From: Deltaproteobacteria bacterium
GTDB lineage: Bacteria > Desulfobacterota > Dissulfuribacteria > Dissulfuribacterales > DYLC01
Assembly (NCBI GenBank): GCA_028695735.1
Contig: JAQVIJ010000008.1
Span: 1-38,524, forward strand
DNA length: 38,524 nt
Direction of reading: 5' to 3'
The translations under genes and the position numbers were made by a program. Positions within the stretch are counted from its first letter, which is position 1; each line of letters starts with the position of its first letter. Positions 19,548 through 37,624 of this stretch are shown here, one piece after another. The notes beneath the pieces were generated by a model. The model was not told where the DNA came from. It saw nothing but the letters and a program-made list of their open reading frames with translations, and searched no databases.

Positions 19548-20246
19548 TCAAAGCTTTGCAGAGCCTTCGGCGATTGCCTCCAGCATGGGAATGTCCTGTA
19601 TGGTCACTTCATTCCCGTTTGTGATGAGCACACCGTTGGCCTGAAAACGGCTGAAGATGCGGGACAAGGTCTCAGGAATGGTGCCGAGCAGGGAGGCGAG
19701 TTGCCCGCGTGTGATGTCCAGCTCAATTTTTTGGCTGTTTTTTTGTTTTTCGACGGCAAACAACAGATACCTGGCAAGACGGCTCGGCACATCCTTGAGG
19801 GACAGGTCTTCAATGAGGTGGGCGAAGATGCGGAGCCTTAGGGAGAGCATGGAGAGCATTTTGAGGGTCAGGCCCGGATTTTTTTGTATCAGCTCGATGA
19901 AGTCGGCCCTTCCGATAAAGACGGCCTCCATGGCCTCCATGGCCTCTGCCGATGCAGGAAAGCTTCTGCCCTCGAAGACCGCTACCTCGCCGAACGGCTC
20001 GCCTGGGCCGAAGACATGGAGGATCTGCTCCTTGCCTTCAGAAGAGAGTTTGAATATCTTCACCCTGCCTTTTGACACCATGTAAAAGCCGTTTCCTGCA
20101 TCGCCTTCACAGAACACGCTCTGGCCCCGCTGATACCTGCGAAGCTGTGCGACAGCCGCGATCTTGTCCAGCATCTCTGGGCTTTGGCCTGTAAATAAGG
20201 GGAATTGTGCAAGTTTGGCTGCCAGTTCGGTATTCATCTTGCGCAT
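19548..20246 (-). CDS. Crp/Fnr-family transcriptional regulator
   Basis: A 232-residue regulator. The start at 20246 overlaps the ychF stop as TAATG; a start at 20237 is also possible. The longer open frame upstream is the ychF gene in another frame. The N-terminal cyclic-nucleotide-type barrel (about 14-125) has RGQSVFCEGDAGNGFYMVSK and GPGEPFGEVAVFEGRSFPA, the usual effector-binding block. The C-terminal winged helix has ITRGQLASLLGTIPETLSRI as recognition helix region. No N-terminal cysteine cluster for Fe-S is present, so this is not a canonical Fnr oxygen sensor. The ligand is unknown. It may form the end of the ychF operon. Confidence 0.9.
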   Translation of the reverse strand: MRKMNTELAAKLAQFPLFTGQSPEMLDKIAAVAQLRRYQRGQSVFCEGDAGNGFYMVSKGRVKIFKLSSEGKEQILHVFGPGEPFGEVAVFEGRSFPASAEAMEAMEAVFIGRADFIELIQKNPGLTLKMLSMLSLRLRIFAHLIEDLSLKDVPSRLARYLLFAVEKQKNSQKIELDITRGQLASLLGTIPETLSRIFSRFQANGVLITNGNEVTIQDIPMLEAIAEGSAKL

Positions 20247-21295
20247 TAAACGCTGAAGCGGAAGTTGATGACATCCCCGTCCTTCACTATATATTCCTTG
20301 CCTTCCAGCCTGACCTTGCCCGCCTTTTGAGCCGCATGATATGAGCCTGCGGCCATCAGGTCGTCGTAGGCCACCACCTCTGCCCGAATAAAGCCCCGTT
20401 CTATATCGGAGTGTATGGCGCCGGCGGCCTTGGGTGCGGGTGTATTCTGTGGAATATCCCATGCCCGTACCTCGTCTTCGCCCACTGTAAAGAAGGAAAT
20501 GAGGCCCAGGAGTTCGTATGAGCTGCGGATGAGCCTTTGAGTGGCTGGTTCCAGCATGTTCAGCTCCTCTCGGAATATCTGGGCGTCTTCCGGTGCGAGT
20601 TGAGCGATCTCCATTTCCAGCCTGCCCTTGATCTCTATAAGGGGCACGCCAGGCGGCGGCTTTATGGGGGTTATGCCCAGTTCCTTGTCGTCACTGGTAT
20701 TCAGAAGCAGGATGCATGGTTTGGCCGTGAGAAAGGCATAGCCCTTGAGCAGTGAAGAGTCGGCTATCTCGGGCAACGTGCGCAGGGCCTGATTGTTGTT
20801 TAAGGCCTGTTGCGCCTGTCTGAGCAGCTCCAGTTCCTTTGGATCGCCTTTTTTGCCTTTGGTGACCTCCTTTTCCAGGCGTTCCAGCCTTTTTTCCACT
20901 GTGATGAGGTCGGTCAGGGCCATATCCGCCTCAAAGGCATTCATATCCTCTTGCGGAGTGGCCGGCAGGCCTGGCAGATCGAAGTTTCTCACCACCAGGA
21001 CCATGGCATCCATGGGCCGCAGCATCTTGAGCAGTTCGTCAGTGGAGGCATCCTTGGTATCGGCCTTGGGGATGCCGCCGCCCACATCTACATATTGTAC
21101 CTGGGCATGAGTGGTTTTTTTGGGGTTGTACATGGCGGAGAGACGGTCGAGACGCTCGTCCGGCACTCGAATGACCGCCAGATTCGGGTCCTTTTTAGCG
21201 CCCTGAAAGCCTGAAAGTTCTGCGCTGCTGCCCGTGATGGCATTGAAGATAGTGGTTTTGCCGCTTCCAGGCATGCCGATTATTCCGATTTTCAT
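20246..21295 (-). CDS. ychF: Redox-regulated ATPase YchF (Obg-like)
   Basis: A 349-residue YchF/OLA1-type P-loop protein. It begins MKIGIIGMPGSGKTTIFNAI with the Walker A, then VQYVDVGGGIPKA (switch II region). The coiled-coil insert lies at about 130-175, and the specificity motif is LLNTSD, the usual NxxD/E replacement linked to ATP preference. The C-terminal TGS-like domain is seen as GFIRAEVVAYDDLMAAGSYH and IVKDGDVINFRFSV. The protein hydrolyses ATP and associates with ribosomes. AAGGA lies 7 nt before the ATG. It follows the DsrE-like gene by 38 bp and overlaps the regulator gene by one base. Confidence 0.92.
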   Translation of the reverse strand: MKIGIIGMPGSGKTTIFNAITGSSAELSGFQGAKKDPNLAVIRVPDERLDRLSAMYNPKKTTHAQVQYVDVGGGIPKADTKDASTDELLKMLRPMDAMVLVVRNFDLPGLPATPQEDMNAFEADMALTDLITVEKRLERLEKEVTKGKKGDPKELELLRQAQQALNNNQALRTLPEIADSSLLKGYAFLTAKPCILLLNTSDDKELGITPIKPPPGVPLIEIKGRLEMEIAQLAPEDAQIFREELNMLEPATQRLIRSSYELLGLISFFTVGEDEVRAWDIPQNTPAPKAAGAIHSDIERGFIRAEVVAYDDLMAAGSYHAAQKAGKVRLEGKEYIVKDGDVINFRFSV

Positions 21296-21333: not shown

Positions 21334-21651
21334 CTAAAAACTAATGACCTTATCGCTCTCTTTAATAAGTTGGTATAATTCTTTCTGAGTGCCTCGTTTT
21401 TGGTATCCTTCCTTCACGCCGTGAAGGTCCATCAATTTACCTCATGCTAACAATTGGCCTTCTGAAAGGGTAAAGGTTTTTGCAAGTGTTTTTAATGGGA
21501 ATTGCGTTGAGTCCAGCCCTTCGTACTGGACTGATGGCCCATTAAGAAAAATAGTGACTTCCGCCATGTCTTCCAGCATTATGTTAGCTAATCTAAAGGC
21601 ATTCCATATCACTTCAGGAATGTTACTGGATACAATAAATAAGATTTTCAT
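21334..21651 (-). CDS. DsrE-like protein read through in-frame TGA (candidate selenoprotein)
   Basis: The frame runs 69 codons from ATG at 21651 (MKILFIVSSNIPEVIWNAFR...), meets TGA at 21444-21442, and continues in the same frame for 35 codons to TAG at 21336. The full product would be 105 residues, the usual size of small DsrE-like sulfur-relay proteins. The part after TGA (GKLMDLHGVKEG..., ending ELYQLIKESDKVISF) fits the family C-terminus. Relatives have a Cys-Gly motif after the LLA strand; here the codon after LLA is TGA and Gly follows. A hairpin with SECIS-like geometry lies 14 nt downstream (21411-21427). DsrE-like selenoproteins are a known rare class. AGGAG precedes the start, which lies 3 bp after the mog stop. 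The gene is more AT-rich than its neighbours. The alternative is a pseudogene with a nonsense mutation. Confidence 0.72.
21411..21427 (-). promoter_or_regulatory. Candidate bacterial SECIS hairpin
   Basis: On the - strand CCTTCAC-GGC-GTGAAGG forms a perfect 7-bp stem with a three-base apical loop starting GG. The loop lies 21 nt after the in-frame TGA. Known bacterial SECIS elements lie directly downstream of the UGA, with 16-37 nt to the apical loop and a G among its first two bases; both hold here. Confidence 0.65.
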
Positions 21652-21654
21652 TCC

Positions 21655-22200
21655 CTATCTCCTTTCATTTTGTATTGCGCCAGCTTCATTTATTTTTGTT
21701 ACATGGCATGGAGTGGCATCTCCTTTCAGCTTGTCCATGGCGTGGCGTATTATGGGTGTAATCACTCGCATAGCGGATGCTACCGCCTTTGGGCTGCCCG
21801 GCATGTTGATGATGAGGGTGCTGCCCCGTATGCCTGCCAGCCCACGGGAGAGCATGGCCATGGGTGTCTCCTTCAACCCCTCCATGCGAATGGCCTCGGC
21901 TATGCCAGGGACCTCCTTTGTTACCACGCGTTTTGTGGCCTCCGGCGTTACGTCCCGTGGGTAGAGGCCGGTGCCGCCTGTGGTGAGTATGAGATCCAAG
22001 CCGTCTGCACACCAGAGTAGCAGGGTCTCCACAATCATGTCCTCCTCATCCGGCACAATGGCGGTCTTTTCCGCTGTAAGGCCGCCGGCGAGGAGCAGCT
22101 CGACTATAGTTCTGCCGCTCAAGTCCTCCCGCTCACCCCGAAAGGAGCTGTCGCTTATGGTCAATACGCCGATTCTATATGGATTTTTCGAGCTTTCCAT
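21655..22200 (-). CDS. mog: Molybdopterin adenylyltransferase-type protein (MogA/MoaB family)
   Basis: A 181-residue MoCF-fold protein. It begins with YRIGVLTISDSSFRGEREDL. The central motif LILTTGGTGLYPRDVTPEAT (about 91-110) is the pterin-binding loop. MAMLSRGLAGIRGSTLIINM and PGSPKAV follow. The TTGGTG...RDVTPEAT form is more like MogA than MoaB. It activates molybdopterin by adenylation for metal insertion. A mobA gene lies at 27657. The start lies 3 bp after the EF-G-like gene stop, and the stop 3 bp before the DsrE-like start, so the three are probably one transcript. Confidence 0.9.
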   Translation of the reverse strand: MESSKNPYRIGVLTISDSSFRGEREDLSGRTIVELLLAGGLTAEKTAIVPDEEDMIVETLLLWCADGLDLILTTGGTGLYPRDVTPEATKRVVTKEVPGIAEAIRMEGLKETPMAMLSRGLAGIRGSTLIINMPGSPKAVASAMRVITPIIRHAMDKLKGDATPCHVTKINEAGAIQNERR

Positions 22201-28777: not shown

Positions 28778-30037
28778 ATGGCATTAGTTAATCCCCATGG
28801 TTCCAAAAAGACCTTGATGCCGCTTTTGCTCACTGGCGTTGCCCGTGACGAGGAGGCCAAGCGTGCGGAGAAGATGAAGAAGGTTCAGATCACTTCCAAG
28901 GAGTCTGGTGACATCCTCATGCTCGGCATGGGCGCCTTCACTCCACTTAATGGTTTTATGTGCAAGGACGATTACGAGGGCTGCATCACGGAGATGAAGC
29001 TTCGCAAGGTCGATCCAGGCACCATGTGGCCGCTTCCTGTGACCCTGTCTGTGGATGAAGAGACCAAAAAGACCCTCAAGGTAGGTGAGGAAGTGGCCCT
29101 TTATGACAGGGAGACCGGTACCCTGATGGCCACCATGAAGGTGGAGGAGATCTGGGAGCCCGACAAGCGCAAGGAGTGCGAGCTCTGCTACAAGGGCAAG
29201 GGTGCTGATTCCGAGCGTTTCTGGGAGGTGGCCGAGGCCGATCACCCAGGCGTGCAGCAGGTGCTCAATTCCGGCAAGTACTATGTGGGCGGGCCCATCA
29301 AGGCCCTCTCTGAGCTGGATTTCAAGCAGAAGTATGGCGATGCCTACATGCATCCTGCTGTTTCCAGAAAGCTGTTTGAGGACAAGGGTTGGAGCAAGGT
29401 CGCTGCCTTCCAGACCAGAAACCCCATTCACCGTTCACATGAGTACCTGTGCAAGATCGCACAGGAGGTCCTGGATGGCGTCTTCATTCATGCCTTGGTG
29501 GGTAAGCTGAAGCCCGGAGACATTCCAGGCGAGAAGCGTATGGAATGTTACAAGGCCCTGCTGGACAACTATTTCAATATGGAGCGCACGGTTTTGGGCG
29601 TATATCCCCTTGAGATGCGTTACGGCGGACCAAAAGAGGCCCTTCTGCACGGCATATTCCGTCAGAACTTCGGATGTTCTCACCTTATTGTGGGCCGTGA
29701 CCATGCCGGCGTAGGCGACTTCTACGGCCTGTTCGAGGCACAAGAGATATTCGATACCCTGTGGCCCGGTGCCCTTGAGTTGACCTGTCTCAAGATCGAC
29801 TGGACATTCTGGTGCAAGAAGTGCGGTGGCATGGCCTCTCTCAAGACCTGCCCGCACACCAAGGAAGACCGTATCGTCGTGAGCGGCACCAAGTTCCGCC
29901 GTCTTATGAGCGAGGGTGGGGATGTGCCTTCAGAGTTCAGCCGTCCAGAGGTATTGGCTATTTTGCGCGACTACTACCAGAATCTTGAGCAGAAGGTCAC
30001 CATCAAGAAGGGTGCATTTGAGGACCTTCCGAAATAA
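28778..30037 (+). CDS. sat: Dissimilatory sulfate adenylyltransferase (ATP sulfurylase)
   Basis: A 419-residue homo-oligomeric ATP sulfurylase without APS kinase domain. The active-site motifs are AAFQTRNPIHRSHEYLCKIA (QTRNP and HRxH, about 209-228) and LIVGRDHAGVGDFYG (GRDHAG). A zinc-binding cysteine set is seen as WCKKCGGMASLKTCPH, typical of sulfate-reducer Sat. It activates sulfate with ATP to APS and pyrophosphate in the cytoplasm; reversed, it makes ATP in sulfur oxidisers and disproportionators. GGAG lies 10 nt before the ATG. It is the first gene after a strong promoter and is followed by aprB. The codon use is strongly biased (GGT, AAG, CTC), as for highly expressed genes. Confidence 0.97.
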   Translation: MALVNPHGSKKTLMPLLLTGVARDEEAKRAEKMKKVQITSKESGDILMLGMGAFTPLNGFMCKDDYEGCITEMKLRKVDPGTMWPLPVTLSVDEETKKTLKVGEEVALYDRETGTLMATMKVEEIWEPDKRKECELCYKGKGADSERFWEVAEADHPGVQQVLNSGKYYVGGPIKALSELDFKQKYGDAYMHPAVSRKLFEDKGWSKVAAFQTRNPIHRSHEYLCKIAQEVLDGVFIHALVGKLKPGDIPGEKRMECYKALLDNYFNMERTVLGVYPLEMRYGGPKEALLHGIFRQNFGCSHLIVGRDHAGVGDFYGLFEAQEIFDTLWPGALELTCLKIDWTFWCKKCGGMASLKTCPHTKEDRIVVSGTKFRRLMSEGGDVPSEFSRPEVLAILRDYYQNLEQKVTIKKGAFEDLPK

Positions 30038-30130
30038 TTGGTGAATTTTGATTTAGTTGGACTGGGCGGCATTTGCCGCCTGGTCTTTGCAGTTGGTTTC
30101 AATAAACAAAAAAACATAGGAGGTAATGTT

Positions 30131-30568
30131 ATGCCAAGCTTTGTCAACCCAGAAAAATGTGATGGTTGCAAGGGTGGAGAGAAGACAGCATGTATGTACA
30201 TCTGCCCCAACGATCTCATGGTGCTTAACCCGGATGCCATGAGGGCCTACAATCAGGAGCCTGATCAGTGTTGGGAGTGCTATTCCTGCGTCAAGATCTG
30301 CCCACAGGGCGCCATCGAAGTGCGTCATTATGCTGACCTGGCCCCGATGGGTGGTTATGTCCAGCCCATGCGCGGCACGGATTCCATTATGTGGACCATC
30401 AAGTTCCGCAATGGCAACACCAAGCGTTTCAAGTTCCCCATCAGAACCACTGCTGAGGGTTCCATCAAGCCCTATGCCGGAAAGCCCGAGGGCGGCAATC
30501 TGGATGACGGCCTTCTCTTTACGGAGACGGCTGGTAGAGCAACCCTTACGCCTGCCCAGGATGCATAA
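30131..30568 (+). CDS. aprB: Adenylylsulfate reductase, beta subunit
   Basis: A 145-residue ferredoxin-type subunit. The ATG at 30131 with AGGAGG upstream is chosen over an earlier in-frame start at 30038. Two [4Fe-4S] sites are seen: CDGCKGGEKTACMYICP with its unusual long spacer, and CWECYSCVKICPQGAIEVR. The C-terminal tail (about 105-145) wraps around the alpha subunit. AprB passes two electrons to the FAD of AprA. Order and spacing (93 bp after sat, 50 bp before aprA) are those of classical sulfate reducers. Confidence 0.97.
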   Translation: MPSFVNPEKCDGCKGGEKTACMYICPNDLMVLNPDAMRAYNQEPDQCWECYSCVKICPQGAIEVRHYADLAPMGGYVQPMRGTDSIMWTIKFRNGNTKRFKFPIRTTAEGSIKPYAGKPEGGNLDDGLLFTETAGRATLTPAQDA

Positions 30569-30618
30569 TTTTAACCAAGATTATCACCGTATTCTAATTT
30601 AATTTCAGGAGGAATAAT

Positions 30619-32604
30619 ATGGCATTACCTAATAAACCAAATTGGGAACTTCTCGCAGAGCCTGACCTCTCCAAGGTGCCTGTCGTTGAGCATGAGTATG
30701 ATGCCCTGATCGTGGGTGGTGGTATGGCCGCTTGCGGTACAGCCTTTGAGATTGGTAAGTGGATGCCCAAGGGATCCAAGGTCGCTTTGGTGGACAAGGC
30801 GTCTCTTGAGCGTTCCGGCGCTGTCGCCCAGGGTCTTTCCGCTATCAATACATATATTGGTGAGAACAAGCCTTCCGACTACGTCCGCATGGTCAGAAAC
30901 GACCTGATGGGTGTCGTCCGTGAAGACCTCATCTTCGACCTGGGCCGTCACGTGGATGATTCAGTCCATCTCTTCGAGGAGTGGGGTCTTCCCATCTGGA
31001 AGAAGAAGGGTTCCGAGGGCAAGAAGCTGGTCGAGGGTGGCGAGCCTGTCCGTACCGGTAAGTGGCAGATCATGATCAACGGTGAGTCCTACAAGTGCAT
31101 TGTGGCTGAGGCCGCCAAGGCTGCCCTGGCTGAGATGGGCTACGACCTGTTCGAGCGTATCTTCATTGTGAAGCTGCTTCTGGATGCCAACAAGCCCAAC
31201 ACCATCGCCGGTGCAGTGGGTTTCAGCGCTCGCGAAAACAAGGTGCACGTATTCAAGGCCAAGGCCATGATGGTTGCCTGCGGTGGCGCAGTCAACATCT
31301 TCCGTCCCCGTACCACAGATGAAGGTAAGGGCCGTGCCTGGTATCCTGTATGGAATGCCGGTTCCACCTACACCATGTGCATGCAGGTGGGCGCAGAGAT
31401 GACCATGATGGAAAACCGCTTCACCCCGTCCCGCTTCAAGGATGGTTATGGCCCGGTTGGTGCTTGGTTCCTGCTCTTCAAGGCCACTGTTACCAACGGC
31501 AAGGGTGAGCACTATGTAAAGAGCGATGCCGCCAAGGCCGAGCTCGCCAAGTATTCCCCATACGGTCAGGCCGCTGTGACCCCCACCTGTCTGCGTAACC
31601 ACCTCATGCTCTATGAAATGAAGGAAGGCCGTGGCCCCATCTATATGGACACCGCTGCCGCTCTCAACAGGTTCCTCGAGGAGAAGAAGGCCGCTGGTAT
31701 GGATGAGAAGGAACTCAAGAAGTACTGGAAGGAGCTGGAGAGCGAGGCATGGGAGGACTTCCTCGACATGTCCGTCGGCCAGGCAGGTCTTTGGGCCTCC
31801 ATGAACATCGAGCCTGAGAAGGTCGGTTCCGAGATCATGCCCACAGAGCCATATATGCTCGGTTCTCACTCCGGTTGCTGCGGTATCTGGGTGTCCGGTC
31901 CAGATGAGGACTGGGTCCCGGCTGACTACAAGTGGGGCTACAACCGCATGACCACAGTCAACGGTCTGTTCACCGCCGGTGACGGCGTGGGTGCCTCAGG
32001 TCACAAGTTCTCCTCCGGCGCACATGCCGAGGGTCGTATAGCCGCCAAGTCAATGGCCAAGTATGTCAGGGACAATGCAGGATTCAAGCCCACTCTGAAG
32101 CAGACCGCTGAGGAGCTCAAGGCCGAGATATACAAGCCTGTTGTAACATATTATGAGCATTATCAGAAGACCACCCATGAGATGGTAAACCCCAACTACA
32201 TCAAGCCCCGTCACATGATGGAGCGTTTGATGAAGTACACCGACGAGTACGGCGGTGGCTGGTCTCCATACTACATGACAAACGGCAAGCTCCTTGAGAT
32301 CGCTATGCATCATCTGCAGTTGCTCCGTGAGGACTCCGAGAAGATGGCTGCCGGTGGTCTGCATGAGCTGCTTCGCGCATGGGAAAACCTGCACCGCATC
32401 TGGTGTGTGGAGGATCACCTCCGTCATATCCAGTTCCGTGAAGAGAGCCGTTACCCCGGCTTCTACTATCGCGGTGACTTCAACAACACCAGCGACACCG
32501 ATATGGATCAGGGCGGTTGGAAGTGCTTTGTCAACTCCAAGTACAATCCTGAGACCGGTGAGTGGAGCACCTTCAAGAAGAAGCTGCATACCATAATTGC
32601 ATAA
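30619..32604 (+). CDS. aprA: Adenylylsulfate reductase, alpha subunit
   Basis: A 661-residue flavoprotein. The FAD-binding loop is DALIVGGGMAACGTAFEIGK (about 28-47). It belongs to the succinate dehydrogenase/fumarate reductase fold. Further family blocks are VACGGAVNIFRPR, YTMCMQVGAEMTMMENRFTP (active-site region) and GLFTAGDGVGASGHKFSSGA near 450-470. It reduces APS to sulfite and AMP, or runs backward. AGGAGG lies 6 nt before the ATG. A clear intrinsic terminator follows at 32643, separating it from qmoABC. Codon use is strongly biased, so expression is high. Confidence 0.97.
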   Translation: MALPNKPNWELLAEPDLSKVPVVEHEYDALIVGGGMAACGTAFEIGKWMPKGSKVALVDKASLERSGAVAQGLSAINTYIGENKPSDYVRMVRNDLMGVVREDLIFDLGRHVDDSVHLFEEWGLPIWKKKGSEGKKLVEGGEPVRTGKWQIMINGESYKCIVAEAAKAALAEMGYDLFERIFIVKLLLDANKPNTIAGAVGFSARENKVHVFKAKAMMVACGGAVNIFRPRTTDEGKGRAWYPVWNAGSTYTMCMQVGAEMTMMENRFTPSRFKDGYGPVGAWFLLFKATVTNGKGEHYVKSDAAKAELAKYSPYGQAAVTPTCLRNHLMLYEMKEGRGPIYMDTAAALNRFLEEKKAAGMDEKELKKYWKELESEAWEDFLDMSVGQAGLWASMNIEPEKVGSEIMPTEPYMLGSHSGCCGIWVSGPDEDWVPADYKWGYNRMTTVNGLFTAGDGVGASGHKFSSGAHAEGRIAAKSMAKYVRDNAGFKPTLKQTAEELKAEIYKPVVTYYEHYQKTTHEMVNPNYIKPRHMMERLMKYTDEYGGGWSPYYMTNGKLLEIAMHHLQLLREDSEKMAAGGLHELLRAWENLHRIWCVEDHLRHIQFREESRYPGFYYRGDFNNTSDTDMDQGGWKCFVNSKYNPETGEWSTFKKKLHTIIA

Positions 32605-32642
32605 TTCATTCTTGAGTGTGTTGTTGAATATCGGTTGAAGCC

Positions 32643-32680
32643 AAATCCCAGGTGTGGTATATCTGCACCTGGGATTTTTT
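32643..32680 (+). terminator. Intrinsic terminator after aprA
   Basis: A perfect 12-bp stem (AAATCCCAGGTG with CACCTGGGATTT, 11-nt loop) runs into a T tract, with a second T-rich run a few bases later. It separates sat-aprBA from qmoABC. Confidence 0.9.
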
Positions 32681-32810
32681 ATAGTTTTGTTTTTACCCTT
32701 AACCATTGCCGGTGCTCGGCGAGATGCCTGGATATTTACTGTTTAGGCCAGGTATTACGCGGATCACCAGCAGGTTTGCTGGTATAAAAATCACTAAAAG
32801 GAGCGGGCAG

Positions 32811-34055
32811 ATGAGTCAAAGCATCTTGGTAATAGGCGGCGGTTTCAGTGGGCTGACGGCCGCTGTGGAAGCCGCTGAAATGGGCTACCAGGTCTATCTG
32901 GTTGAAAAAGAAAGCTATTTAGGCGGCAGGGTAGCGCAGCTCAACAAATACTTCCCGAAGCTGTGTCCACCCACATGTGGCCTGGAGATCAATTTCAGGC
33001 GTGTCAAAACCAATCCAAACATCACATTTTACACTCAGGCGGAGGTCAAGTCTGTGCAGGGCTCTGCCGGCAATTTCAATGTTGAAGTGGTGGTCAACCC
33101 TCGATACACCACGCCTCAGTGCACGAATTGCAAGCCTGGTGAGGCGGTTGCTTCTGTTGAGGCCCCCAATGAATTCAATTTCGGCATGGATAACCGCAAG
33201 GGTATTTATATGCCGCATCCCATGTCTTTTCCCAATCAGTGCGTAGTGGATCCGGCGGTGGCTGCCTCTGCTGAGGGTCAGAAGATTAAAGACGCTATGC
33301 CGGCAGGTCATGTGGATCTTTCGCAAAAGCCTGAGACCATTCAGTTGAATGTCGGGGCTGTAATTGTGGCCAGCGGCTGGAAGCCGTATGATCCGGCCAA
33401 TATGGAGCGGCTCTGCTATGGCAAATATCCTAATATTGTAACCAACATGATGCTTGAGCGTTTGGCGTCTCCGTCCGGCCCTACCGGTGGGCAGATCGTG
33501 AGGCCTTCCGACAAAACCATGCCCAAGAAGGTCGGTTTTGTTCAGTGCGCTGGGTCACGTGACAAGGCATATCTTCCTTATTGTTCTTACATATGCTGCA
33601 TGGCCACCCTTAAACATATCTGCTACATTCGTGAGCAATCGCCGGATACGGAATGTTATGTGTTCTACATTGACATTCGTTCTCCTGGCGCCAAGTATGA
33701 AAAATTCTATGCCAAGGTCAAGGCCGATGCCAAGGTGCATTTCATAAAGGGCAAGGTGGCTGAGGTCAAACCTGGGTCTTCTGCTGATTCAGTGGTCCTG
33801 GTGGCGGAGGATACCATTGGCGGCGGCAAGGTAGAGCAGGAAGTGGATATGGCGGTATTAGCCACAGGTATGCAGCCGGTAGGGGCATTAAATCCAATTC
33901 CTGGTATTGAATATGATGCAGATGGATTTGTGAAACCCAAAGAGGGCATTGTGCCATGTGGTTGCGCCAAGAGGCCGGTGGATGTTGTGTCCTCTGCGCA
34001 GAGCGCCACCGCGGCGGCATTGAAGGCTATTCAGATGATTAGGAGGGCAGGATAA
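32811..34055 (+). CDS. qmoA: QmoA, flavoprotein of the quinone-interacting oxidoreductase complex
   Basis: A 414-residue HdrA-like flavoprotein from the ATG at 32811, with AGGAG 8 nt upstream; the earlier open frame is not needed. The FAD loop is ILVIGGGFSGLTAAVEAAEM, followed by LVEKESYLGGRVAQLNKYFP. The cysteines PKLCPPTCGLEINF, KKVGFVQCAGSRD and YICCMATLKHICYI resemble HdrA. QmoA with QmoB carries electrons between the membrane subunit QmoC and AprBA. The stop overlaps the qmoB start as TAATG. It sits 130 bp after the aprA terminator, so it is transcribed from readthrough or from its own promoter, which I could not define well. Confidence 0.95.
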   Translation: MSQSILVIGGGFSGLTAAVEAAEMGYQVYLVEKESYLGGRVAQLNKYFPKLCPPTCGLEINFRRVKTNPNITFYTQAEVKSVQGSAGNFNVEVVVNPRYTTPQCTNCKPGEAVASVEAPNEFNFGMDNRKGIYMPHPMSFPNQCVVDPAVAASAEGQKIKDAMPAGHVDLSQKPETIQLNVGAVIVASGWKPYDPANMERLCYGKYPNIVTNMMLERLASPSGPTGGQIVRPSDKTMPKKVGFVQCAGSRDKAYLPYCSYICCMATLKHICYIREQSPDTECYVFYIDIRSPGAKYEKFYAKVKADAKVHFIKGKVAEVKPGSSADSVVLVAEDTIGGGKVEQEVDMAVLATGMQPVGALNPIPGIEYDADGFVKPKEGIVPCGCAKRPVDVVSSAQSATAAALKAIQMIRRAG

Positions 34056-36370
34056 TGGCAAAGATTGGAGTATATATATATACTGGTGACGGTATAGCCG
34101 AGGCTGTGGATGTAGAGGGGCTCATCAAGGTGGCGACGAAGTCCGGTGCCGCTGTCGCCAAGTCCCATGCAGACCTCTATTCGCCTGAAGGTGTCGCCAT
34201 GGTCAAGCAGGATATTGAGGCCGAGGGTTTGACGGCCATATCCCTTGTGGGCATGTCTCCCCGTTACGAATATAAGACATTTGATTTTCCGGGGGTTTAT
34301 CTCGACAAGACCGGCATCAGGGAATTGGTTGCCTGGAGTCACCGCATTGATCCGAGCGATGAAAAGGCCGATTCCAAGAAGGAACACGTGCAGGAGTTGG
34401 CTGAGGATTATATCCGCATGGCTGTCACCAAGCTGCAGAAGGTCCAGATGCCTACTCCGGATAAGCTGGAGGCCCCCAACACCCGTATTCTGGTAATAGG
34501 CGGTGGTGTAACCGGTATGACTGCTGCACTTGAGGCTGCTGAGGCCGGGTATGAGGTCACCATCGTGGAGCGGACTGGTGAGCTTGGTGGTTACGGTATG
34601 CAGGTCAGAAAACAGATACCTGTGGGTCCTGACTATTCCAGCCTTGTGAATCCGGTGGCCCCTTCCCTTATTGAGAAGATAAAATCCAATTCCAAAATAA
34701 CCGTTAAGACTGAAACAGAGATCGCCCGTATCTACGGCGCCCCTGGTAAATATCGTGTATCCCTCAAGGCGGCTGGTACAAAGAGTGAGTGGGATGCGCC
34801 GGTGCCTTTGACCCCTGAGGAAAAGCTGGATGCAAATGGCAAGGAACTTTCCGCTGAGGATCAGAAGAAGGTCTATGCAGCCAAAAACGAAGGCCGTAAC
34901 GACTATATGGTTGAGGATGCCAATGGAGAGCTCTTCGGCGCAGTAATTCTGGCCGCCGGTTGGAAGCCTGCTATCCCTGCCGATGGTGAGTATCCTCATC
35001 TGGCATGGGGTAACCCCAATGTCCTCACCAATCATCAGTTTGAGCAGCTTGCCAAGTCCGGAAAGCTCAAGAGGCCCTCTGATGGCAAAGAGATCAAGAC
35101 AGTTGCATTTGTTCAGAGCCCTGGCGGCTTGAACGATGATGCTGATTTCCCTTATGCATCAGCCGTTACTACAATGGTCTCTTTGAAACAGGCCAAATAT
35201 GTCAGAGAGGATTATCCTGAGGATGGCAAGGCCTATGTTCTCTATCAGCATATGAGAACGCCCGGCCAGTATGAATATTTTTATAAAGGCCTTCAGGATG
35301 ATGCAGGCATATTCCTTTCCAAGGGTGCTGTGACTGCTGTAAAGGATAACGGCGCAGGCGGGCTCACCGTCACGGTTGAAAAGACCCTTTTGGGTGACAA
35401 TATCGCTTTGGATGTGGATGTGGTGGTGTTGGCTACCGGTATGTTGCCGGCCACCAAGGATGAGGCGGTTGTCAATCTGGCATACCGTCAGGGCCCTGCC
35501 TTCAGGGACCTCGACCTGTTCGGCGGCTACTGCGATTCGAACTTTATCTGCTTTCCCTATGAAACACGCAGAACCGGTATATATGCAGCCGGTCCTGTGC
35601 GCAGGACAATGACCATCGAAGAGTCCATGGAGGATGCGGCTGGTGCTGCCCTCAAGGCCATTCAGGCGGTCAAGGCGGCGGAGGAAGGTCACGCAGTGCA
35701 TCCCCGTACATGGGATTTCGACTATCCGGATTTTTACTTCCAGCGTTGTACCCAGTGTAAGCGTTGTACGGAAGAGTGTCCGTTTGGTGCATTGGATGAC
35801 GACGAGAAAGGCACTCCGAAGCCCAATCCAACCCGTTGCCGTCGCTGCGGAACCTGTATGGGTGCCTGTCCTGAGCGCATCATAGGCTTCAAGGATTACA
35901 ATATCGATGTGGTTGGCTCCATGATCAAGTCCATAGAGGTCCCGGATGATGATGAAGACAAGCTCAGAATGGTAATCTTCGCCTGTGAAAACGATGCATA
36001 TCCGGCATTGGATATGGCGGCTGCCAAGGGTCTGGGCTGGTCTCCTCTGCCCAGAATCATTCCGGTTCGTTGCCTTGGTTCCGTGAACGTGGCATGGATC
36101 AAGGATGCCATGTCCAGTGGTCTGGATGGTGTGCTATTGCTTGGCTGTAAGTTCGGAGATGATTATCAGTGCCATTTTGTAAAGGGTAGTGAGCTGGCGG
36201 ATCGTCGTATGGCAAATGTGGCGGAGACCATCAAGTCTCTTGGCATGGAGCCTGAGCGCGTCAAGCTGGCACAGATAGCAATCGACGAGTATGATAAAGT
36301 CCCAGGCGTTATCGACGCATTTGTGGAAGAGATAGTCGGCATGGGGCCAAATCCATTCAAGGGATTTTAG
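34055..36370 (+). CDS. qmoB: QmoB, flavoprotein with ferredoxin and MvhD-type domains
   Basis: A 771-residue multidomain protein. The N-terminal ~115 residues are a QmoB-type cap. An HdrA-like FAD domain follows, with ILVIGGGVTGMTAALEAAEA (about 147-166). A 2x[4Fe-4S] ferredoxin block lies near 565-610 (CTQCKRCTEECPFGALDDDE; CRRCGTCMGACPERIIGF). The last ~140 residues are MvhD-like (RMVIFACENDAY, IPVRCLGSVNVAWI, LLLGCKFGDDYQCHFVKGSE). It is thought to link QmoA and the AprBA complex, possibly with electron confurcation. It overlaps qmoA by one base and ends 12 bp before the best qmoC start. The architecture matches the sulfate-reducer form. Confidence 0.95.
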   Translation: MAKIGVYIYTGDGIAEAVDVEGLIKVATKSGAAVAKSHADLYSPEGVAMVKQDIEAEGLTAISLVGMSPRYEYKTFDFPGVYLDKTGIRELVAWSHRIDPSDEKADSKKEHVQELAEDYIRMAVTKLQKVQMPTPDKLEAPNTRILVIGGGVTGMTAALEAAEAGYEVTIVERTGELGGYGMQVRKQIPVGPDYSSLVNPVAPSLIEKIKSNSKITVKTETEIARIYGAPGKYRVSLKAAGTKSEWDAPVPLTPEEKLDANGKELSAEDQKKVYAAKNEGRNDYMVEDANGELFGAVILAAGWKPAIPADGEYPHLAWGNPNVLTNHQFEQLAKSGKLKRPSDGKEIKTVAFVQSPGGLNDDADFPYASAVTTMVSLKQAKYVREDYPEDGKAYVLYQHMRTPGQYEYFYKGLQDDAGIFLSKGAVTAVKDNGAGGLTVTVEKTLLGDNIALDVDVVVLATGMLPATKDEAVVNLAYRQGPAFRDLDLFGGYCDSNFICFPYETRRTGIYAAGPVRRTMTIEESMEDAAGAALKAIQAVKAAEEGHAVHPRTWDFDYPDFYFQRCTQCKRCTEECPFGALDDDEKGTPKPNPTRCRRCGTCMGACPERIIGFKDYNIDVVGSMIKSIEVPDDDEDKLRMVIFACENDAYPALDMAAAKGLGWSPLPRIIPVRCLGSVNVAWIKDAMSSGLDGVLLLGCKFGDDYQCHFVKGSELADRRMANVAETIKSLGMEPERVKLAQIAIDEYDKVPGVIDAFVEEIVGMGPNPFKGF

Positions 36371-36382
36371 GGAGGTATGACA

Positions 36383-37624
36383 ATGGGCGAGCAACAACAA
36401 ATGCAGCCGGATCTTTCTTTTGTCAAAGGGGTTATGGCATCCGGCGGCGAGACCGTCAAGAAGTGTTATCAGTGTGCGACCTGTTCAGTGGTTTGTCCGC
36501 TTTCCACAAACGACAGTCCTTTCCCCAGAAAGGAAATGCTCTGGACCCAATGGGGTTTGGCTGGTCGTGTGTCTGGGGATGTGGATGTGTGGTTATGTCA
36601 TCAGTGCGGTGACTGTACCAAGCACTGCCCGAGGGATGCAAGGCCGGGTGATGTGCTGGCGGCCATTCGCATAAATGCCATCCGTTATTATGCAAACCCG
36701 AAGGCCTTGGCGGATGTATTCAATTCGCCTGGTGGAGTGGTGGGCGCGGTGATAGCTGCGGCTGTATTGGTATTGATTGTGGCGGCTGTTTGGTCTCAGA
36801 TAACCGGTAATGCATTTCCGTTTCCATTGAATCACGAAGGAAAGGTGGAGTATCATGAATTTTTGAGTGTGATACCCATAGATGCGATGGTCCTGCCCAT
36901 TGTCGCCTGGATTATATATGTCTCCTACAATGGTGTCTCAAGGTTCTGGAACGACATCAGTAAGGGTGCAGGGCTGCCGGAATCCTTTACCGGCACATAT
37001 CCAAAGCCATCCATAGGCCTTTTGCTTTCCAAGTATCTCGGCCCGGCAGTCATGGAAATCTTGAGCCATTCCCGCTTTAAGAAATGTGGTCAGACCGCTG
37101 AGCGGGCGCGCGGACATCTCCTGCTGCTTTGGTCGTTTATCATCCTATTCGCCGTCACCAATTATGTTTTTATTGCGGAAGACCTTTTCCATGCGGCGTT
37201 AGGGCTTATATCAAAGGTGACGCCTCTGCCCTTGTATCACCCGGTCAAACTGGCGGCCAATGTGGGGGGCATCATGTTGATTGCAGGTATCCTGATGGTC
37301 AAGTCCATGAGAACCCAGAAGACTGAGGAAGGCGTTTTGACCAGTGCCGCCCCTGATTGGGTGCTCATCTGGCTCATCTTTGCCGTGGGCGCTACTGGGA
37401 TAGGTGCAGAGGTTTTGCGTCTGATCAACATAGCTCCCATAGCCTATCCGGTTTATATCCTGCATCTGGCCACTATTATAGTGCTTTTCCTGTCATTGCC
37501 GTATGGCAAGTTCGGTCATCTTATCTACAGAACTACTGCCTATGTGTTTCAGCGCTGGGCGGATGATGTGAAGGCAGGCAAGGCAGGGTTCGGGCTTGAA
37601 AAGGCCGTGGGCGCCGCCCATTGA
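36383..37624 (+). CDS. qmoC: QmoC, membrane subunit with Fe-S and cytochrome b domains
   Basis: About 413 residues from the ATG at 36383, which has GGAGG at proper distance; the ATG at 36377 is only 1 nt from it. The N-terminal domain has two cysteine motifs like HdrC: CYQCATCSVVCPLSTND and CHQCGDCTKHCPRDARPG. The C-terminal part is a NarI/HdrE-like cytochrome b domain with about six membrane helices, starting near residues 120-140 (GAVIAAAVLVLIVAAVW), with histidines for heme in and near the helices. It oxidises menaquinol and feeds electrons to QmoAB. A clear terminator follows the stop at 37652. Confidence 0.95.
   Translation: MGEQQQMQPDLSFVKGVMASGGETVKKCYQCATCSVVCPLSTNDSPFPRKEMLWTQWGLAGRVSGDVDVWLCHQCGDCTKHCPRDARPGDVLAAIRINAIRYYANPKALADVFNSPGGVVGAVIAAAVLVLIVAAVWSQITGNAFPFPLNHEGKVEYHEFLSVIPIDAMVLPIVAWIIYVSYNGVSRFWNDISKGAGLPESFTGTYPKPSIGLLLSKYLGPAVMEILSHSRFKKCGQTAERARGHLLLLWSFIILFAVTNYVFIAEDLFHAALGLISKVTPLPLYHPVKLAANVGGIMLIAGILMVKSMRTQKTEEGVLTSAAPDWVLIWLIFAVGATGIGAEVLRLINIAPIAYPVYILHLATIIVLFLSLPYGKFGHLIYRTTAYVFQRWADDVKAGKAGFGLEKAVGAAH

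Follow-up and report, generated by a model that had tools for sequence, protein, structure and literature searches.

The locus and the hairpin downstream of its TGA

The window, that is, the whole stretch of 38,524 nucleotides analyzed here, contains on the minus strand a 105-codon gene for a DsrE-like protein that is flanked by genes for a molybdopterin-binding domain protein and a YchF-type GTPase (Table 1); the former gene probably belongs to the same operon. Translation from 21651 on the minus strand yields MKILFIVSS...TLSEGQLLA-U-GKLMDLHGVKEGYQ...VISF*, and the frame is open throughout except for the TGA at codon 70. An ordinary listing of open reading frames contains no gene of at least 80 residues on the minus strand at this locus, and a standard gene call would truncate the apparent selenoprotein gene at the TGA.

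Table 1. Coordinates of the DsrE-like gene, its predicted recoding signals and the adjacent genes in the window
Feature	Coordinates	Strand	Remarks
YchF-type GTPase gene	20246..21295	-	downstream
DsrE-like gene (apparent selenoprotein), 105 codons	21334..21651	-	ATG 21651, stop TAG 21336-21334
Predicted bacterial SECIS, upper stem-loop	21411..21427	-	7 bp CCUUCAC/GUGAAGG, GGC apical loop; 5' arm CCTTCAC 21427-21421, 3' arm GTGAAGG 21417-21411 (sequence read directly)
Apical loop GGC	21418..21420	-	all 41 aligned relatives have GG; the third position is free and takes any of the four bases
In-frame TGA, codon 70, predicted to be read as selenocysteine	21442..21444	-	TGA in near orthologues, Cys codons in distant homologues
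AAGGAG, Shine-Dalgarno-like sequence	21659..21664	-	7 nt before ATG, overlaps the end of the upstream gene; read directly
Molybdopterin-binding domain gene (MoaB/Mog-like, PF00994)	21655..22200	-	upstream

An earlier note on this DNA described a perfect 7-bp stem with a GGC loop 21 nt past the TGA, and this description is exact for positions 21427-21411 of the minus strand. In the published model, bacterial SECIS elements have a loop of 3-9 nt, a stem of 4-16 bp, a distance of 16-37 nt from the UGA, a G among the first two loop bases and an MFE of -7.5 or lower (PMC13188914). The note had invoked the distance and the loop rule, correctly in both cases given the spacing of 21 nt and the GGC loop, and the published limits on stem length and energy likewise accommodate the hairpin, which has 7 bp and, by itself, an energy of -7.6 kcal/mol. 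These rules were applied by script because Rfam, at the gathering threshold, reported only tRNAs in the window and no bacterial SECIS match. In position, stem length, small GG-first loop and energy, the hairpin resembles the consensus of Zhang and Gladyshev (PMC13188914), and its GGN loop with a C-G closing pair fits the consensus pattern N1-G[G/U]-N-N2; there is no essential difference, and the covariation for the DsrE-like family is worked out here.

When the UGA is folded together with the next 45 nt, the hairpin is the MFE structure (-9.5 kcal/mol) with pair probabilities of 0.91-0.94, and in local context its energy ranges from -8.7 to -10.3 kcal/mol. In the folding check that the note had proposed for positions 21380-21450 (71 nt), the two arms can also pair in a shifted register that uses the UGA itself, and this fold is 0.4 kcal/mol better than the stem (-12.9 vs -12.5 kcal/mol; pair probability about 0.38). 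Because the UGA is within the ribosome while it is being decoded, this region was masked as ribosome-covered; once the UGA, the preceding bases and the 9 nt that follow are masked, the stem is again the MFE structure, with pair probabilities of 0.74-0.76.

The further claim that such a stem is unlikely by chance is moderately true for one sequence (approximately 1 in 90): of the 1459 TGAs in the window, 16 (1.1%) carry a perfect stem of at least 7 bp with permitted geometry, 3 of these with a 3-nt loop, and recoding the downstream codons synonymously produces such a stem in 1.3% of cases. The sequence alone is no proof, and the significance of the stem derives from the comparison with relatives rather than from single-sequence odds.

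Conservation of the TGA and the stem

A scan of one-genome-per-species contigs identified 15 orthologues, all of which have TGA at codon 70, flanked on either side by sequence of 60-74% identity (82% in L018, a partial sequence); most are named as Desulfobacterota, including Desulfotignum, Desulfobacula, Desulfosarcina, Desulfopila, Desulfobulbus and others. Protein identity is equal across the UGA (73% before, 71% after), and the changes downstream of it comprise 494 at third positions vs 302 at first plus second positions. Of 395 genomes of the phylum searched with a profile, 79 contained matches, and most of these matches share the in-frame TGA.

When 41 sequences of the two nearer groups are aligned, standard pairs occupy 98.2% of the pair cells, and the compensatory changes that the note had suggested looking for are present, with double changes at 6 of the 7 pairs. 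Cells with both sides changed number 25, compared to 5.7 in shuffles, and the covariation score is 0.336 vs a shuffled mean of 0.166; none of the 500 shuffles reaches the observed value, which is not to be read as a probability, the shuffle control ignoring relatedness, which inflates the test. Because kinship has this effect, we rely more on the pattern and on independent switches: the fourth pair switched at least three times on the tree, once between the window and its sister (closest relative), L018. Sliding the partner arm by 1-3 columns reduces pairing to 38.9-56.8%, and RNAalifold recovers exactly this helix unprompted.

Of the two adverse cases that the note had named, a clearly more stable fold that destroys the hairpin did not occur, and orthologues that retain the TGA but not the stem-loop were not seen in the window's own group, apart from L028, where a single A-A mismatch lies beside the apical pair, and L056 (L056:1501-1740), where the TGA is accompanied by an additional in-frame TAG, a broken stem and further lesions; the latter is probably a pseudogene. 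A DsrE-like gene in L045 / L077 (G101:C1:460431-460744) has the TGA and an intact SECIS-type stem but is divided between two frames near codons 66-69, owing to either a frameshift or an error of assembly. In a third group, more distantly related, a similar element has a loop of six bases starting with GG, at the same distance and with compensatory changes of its own. In the distant DsrE-like group L068-L096 (YVUGVCMKSHGL...CP), the six-base loop reads GGTCTN, and A-A mismatches next to the closing pair are frequent.

The arms of the stem also encode a conserved peptide, DLHGV(K/E), so that the pairing might be a by-product of selection on the protein rather than on the RNA. We consider this very unlikely because the synonymous choice follows the pairing. 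In the window's clade, Leu76 is encoded by CTT with AAG at codon 80 (12 of 12) and by CTC with GAG or GGG (14 of 14; Fisher p 1e-7), but never by CTG, although CTG is the leucine codon used most often in those genes of the window that were sampled. At Val79, GTG occurs in 25 of 25 cases, vs 10 of 50 at other conserved valine codons, and elsewhere in these proteins the conserved valines draw on all four codons. Moreover, the pairs survive residue replacement: where residues 76 and 80 vary, as they do in the second group, 12 of 14 sequences have a third base in codon 80 that tracks the first base in codon 76, with combinations such as ATC/GAT, TTC/GAA, TCC/GGA, GTC/GAC and others. The same bases here serve both as RNA signal and as protein motif, and the hairpin is preserved by joint changes in synonymous codons and even in residues 76 and 80, which makes this one of the cleaner comparative cases.

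Probable selenocysteine decoding of codon 70

Among the homologues, TGC or TGT replaces the TGA in L041 and L057-L067, and a Haloferax homologue also has cysteine at this position. In the homologues with cysteine at codon 70, the stem is weaker or absent, the mean local MFE being -3.9 kcal/mol vs -9.9 kcal/mol for the TGA forms. In the nearest cysteine form (L041:1501-1818, minus strand), 6 of the 7 positions can still pair and the apical pair is broken, which looks like a decayed SECIS relic left by a recent change from selenocysteine to cysteine. No relatives of the protein were detected in the viral contigs searched, and those on plasmids are distant haloarchaeal cysteine forms only.

The same genome encodes tRNA-Sec with a UCA anticodon, SelA, SelD and a complete SelB, including wing_2 and wing_3, the two winged-helix domains with which SelB binds SECIS RNA. 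Two other genes, selD and one of the FlpD/MvhD type (methyl-viologen-reducing-hydrogenase delta), each contain an in-frame TGA followed, at +20 and +23, by a stem of 5 and 7 bp, respectively, with a 3-nt loop that starts with G; such shared geometry of the three elements is expected if a single SelB reads all of them.

The retention and compensation of the stem in orthologues, its weakening or absence in the cysteine homologues and the full set of genes for selenocysteine machinery support the bacterial SECIS reading of the earlier note. On this comparative evidence, we consider it highly probable that the hairpin is a bacterial SECIS for selenocysteine at UGA codon 70, with SelB binding and insertion inferred. 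At this codon, SelB carrying Sec-tRNA(Sec) would bind the apical-loop GG and the upper stem and deliver selenocysteine instead of termination; the predicted product is a 105-residue protein of the DsrE fold with selenocysteine where homologues keep a conserved cysteine. The classification of the gene as a DsrE-like selenoprotein gene, a new example of a known mechanism in a family known since 2005, is well supported.

An alternative, in which a selC*-type tRNA-Cys and a second SelB insert cysteine at the UGA, has a precedent in the selC* tRNA-Cys with a UCA anticodon described in Desulfobacterales (PMC7609411), and outside the window the genome indeed has a second SelB-like gene (G000:C2:677348-678567; L010, L002) of 661 aa with weak wing domains, directly adjoining a 90-nt tRNA-Sec-like tRNA. 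This is the selC* tRNA-Cys/selB* pair known from deltaproteobacteria (PMC7609411), but the anticodon here is a sense one, GCA (ARAGORN: tRNA-Cys), which does not read UGA, and the regular tRNA-Sec(UCA), SelA, SelB and SelD are present, so that cysteine decoding appears most improbable. That the TGA is a genuine stop, giving a 69-residue product or marking a pseudogene, with a stem by chance, is hardly credible: stems of this quality follow roughly 1% of the TGAs in the window, but the TGA and stem are conserved in dozens of genomes, with identity unchanged across the TGA, third-position-rich changes downstream, compensatory changes, and Cys codons at this site in homologues.

The DsrE-like family and the missing partner cysteine

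The match of the protein to PF02635 (DsrE/DsrF-like) falls just under the cut-off (E 2.7e-4; 21.5 bits vs 22.7), NCBIfam has no model for it, and a sequence search of solved structures retrieved nothing; only the fold search, with an AlphaFold2 model (pLDDT 89), made the link, matching the solved DsrE-like structures 3pnx, 3mc3 and 2qs7. Reports of DsrE-like selenoproteins with the motif UxxC date from 2005 (Sargasso Sea) and 2006 (Desulfovibrio vulgaris) (PMC1088965, PMC1794560). With these (PF02635; PMC1088965, PMC1794560, PMC2398784), the window protein shares the DsrE fold, selenocysteine at a conserved cysteine position, a SECIS immediately downstream and an origin in sulfate-reducing Desulfobacterota (formerly Deltaproteobacteria).

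The published motif, however, is absent: the window protein has UGKL and no cysteine anywhere. Within its clade (n=26), UGKL occurs in 20 sequences, USKL in 1 and UGKC in 5, so that the partner cysteine is missing in 21 of the 26. Judging from the DsrE fold, selenocysteine would most likely serve as a nucleophile in sulfur or thiol handling. Tentatively, the clade may represent a Sec-only DsrE-like branch that has lost the resolving cysteine of UxxC; in that case, selenocysteine would not form one half of a selenenylsulfide but would be the only nucleophile, for instance, carrying sulfur as a perselenide in sulfate reducers. With the partner cysteine lost, the role of a lone selenocysteine in a DsrE-type protein of sulfate reducers becomes a testable question.

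The genes that flank the DsrE-like gene in the window are absent beside the orthologues, which have different neighbors (enoyl-CoA hydratase, TauE, FMN reductase and others), and because it is not conserved, the neighborhood gives no functional clue. Elsewhere in the window, the plus strand of 28778-37624 encodes ATP sulfurylase, an FAD-binding protein similar in size to AprA, an HdrA-like/FlpD fusion of 771 aa (QmoB-like) and an Fe-S protein (QmoC-like), with the Qmo and Apr names resting on gene order and size; this is probably a sulfate-activation and electron-transfer cluster that resembles the adenylylsulfate-reduction cluster of a sulfate reducer.
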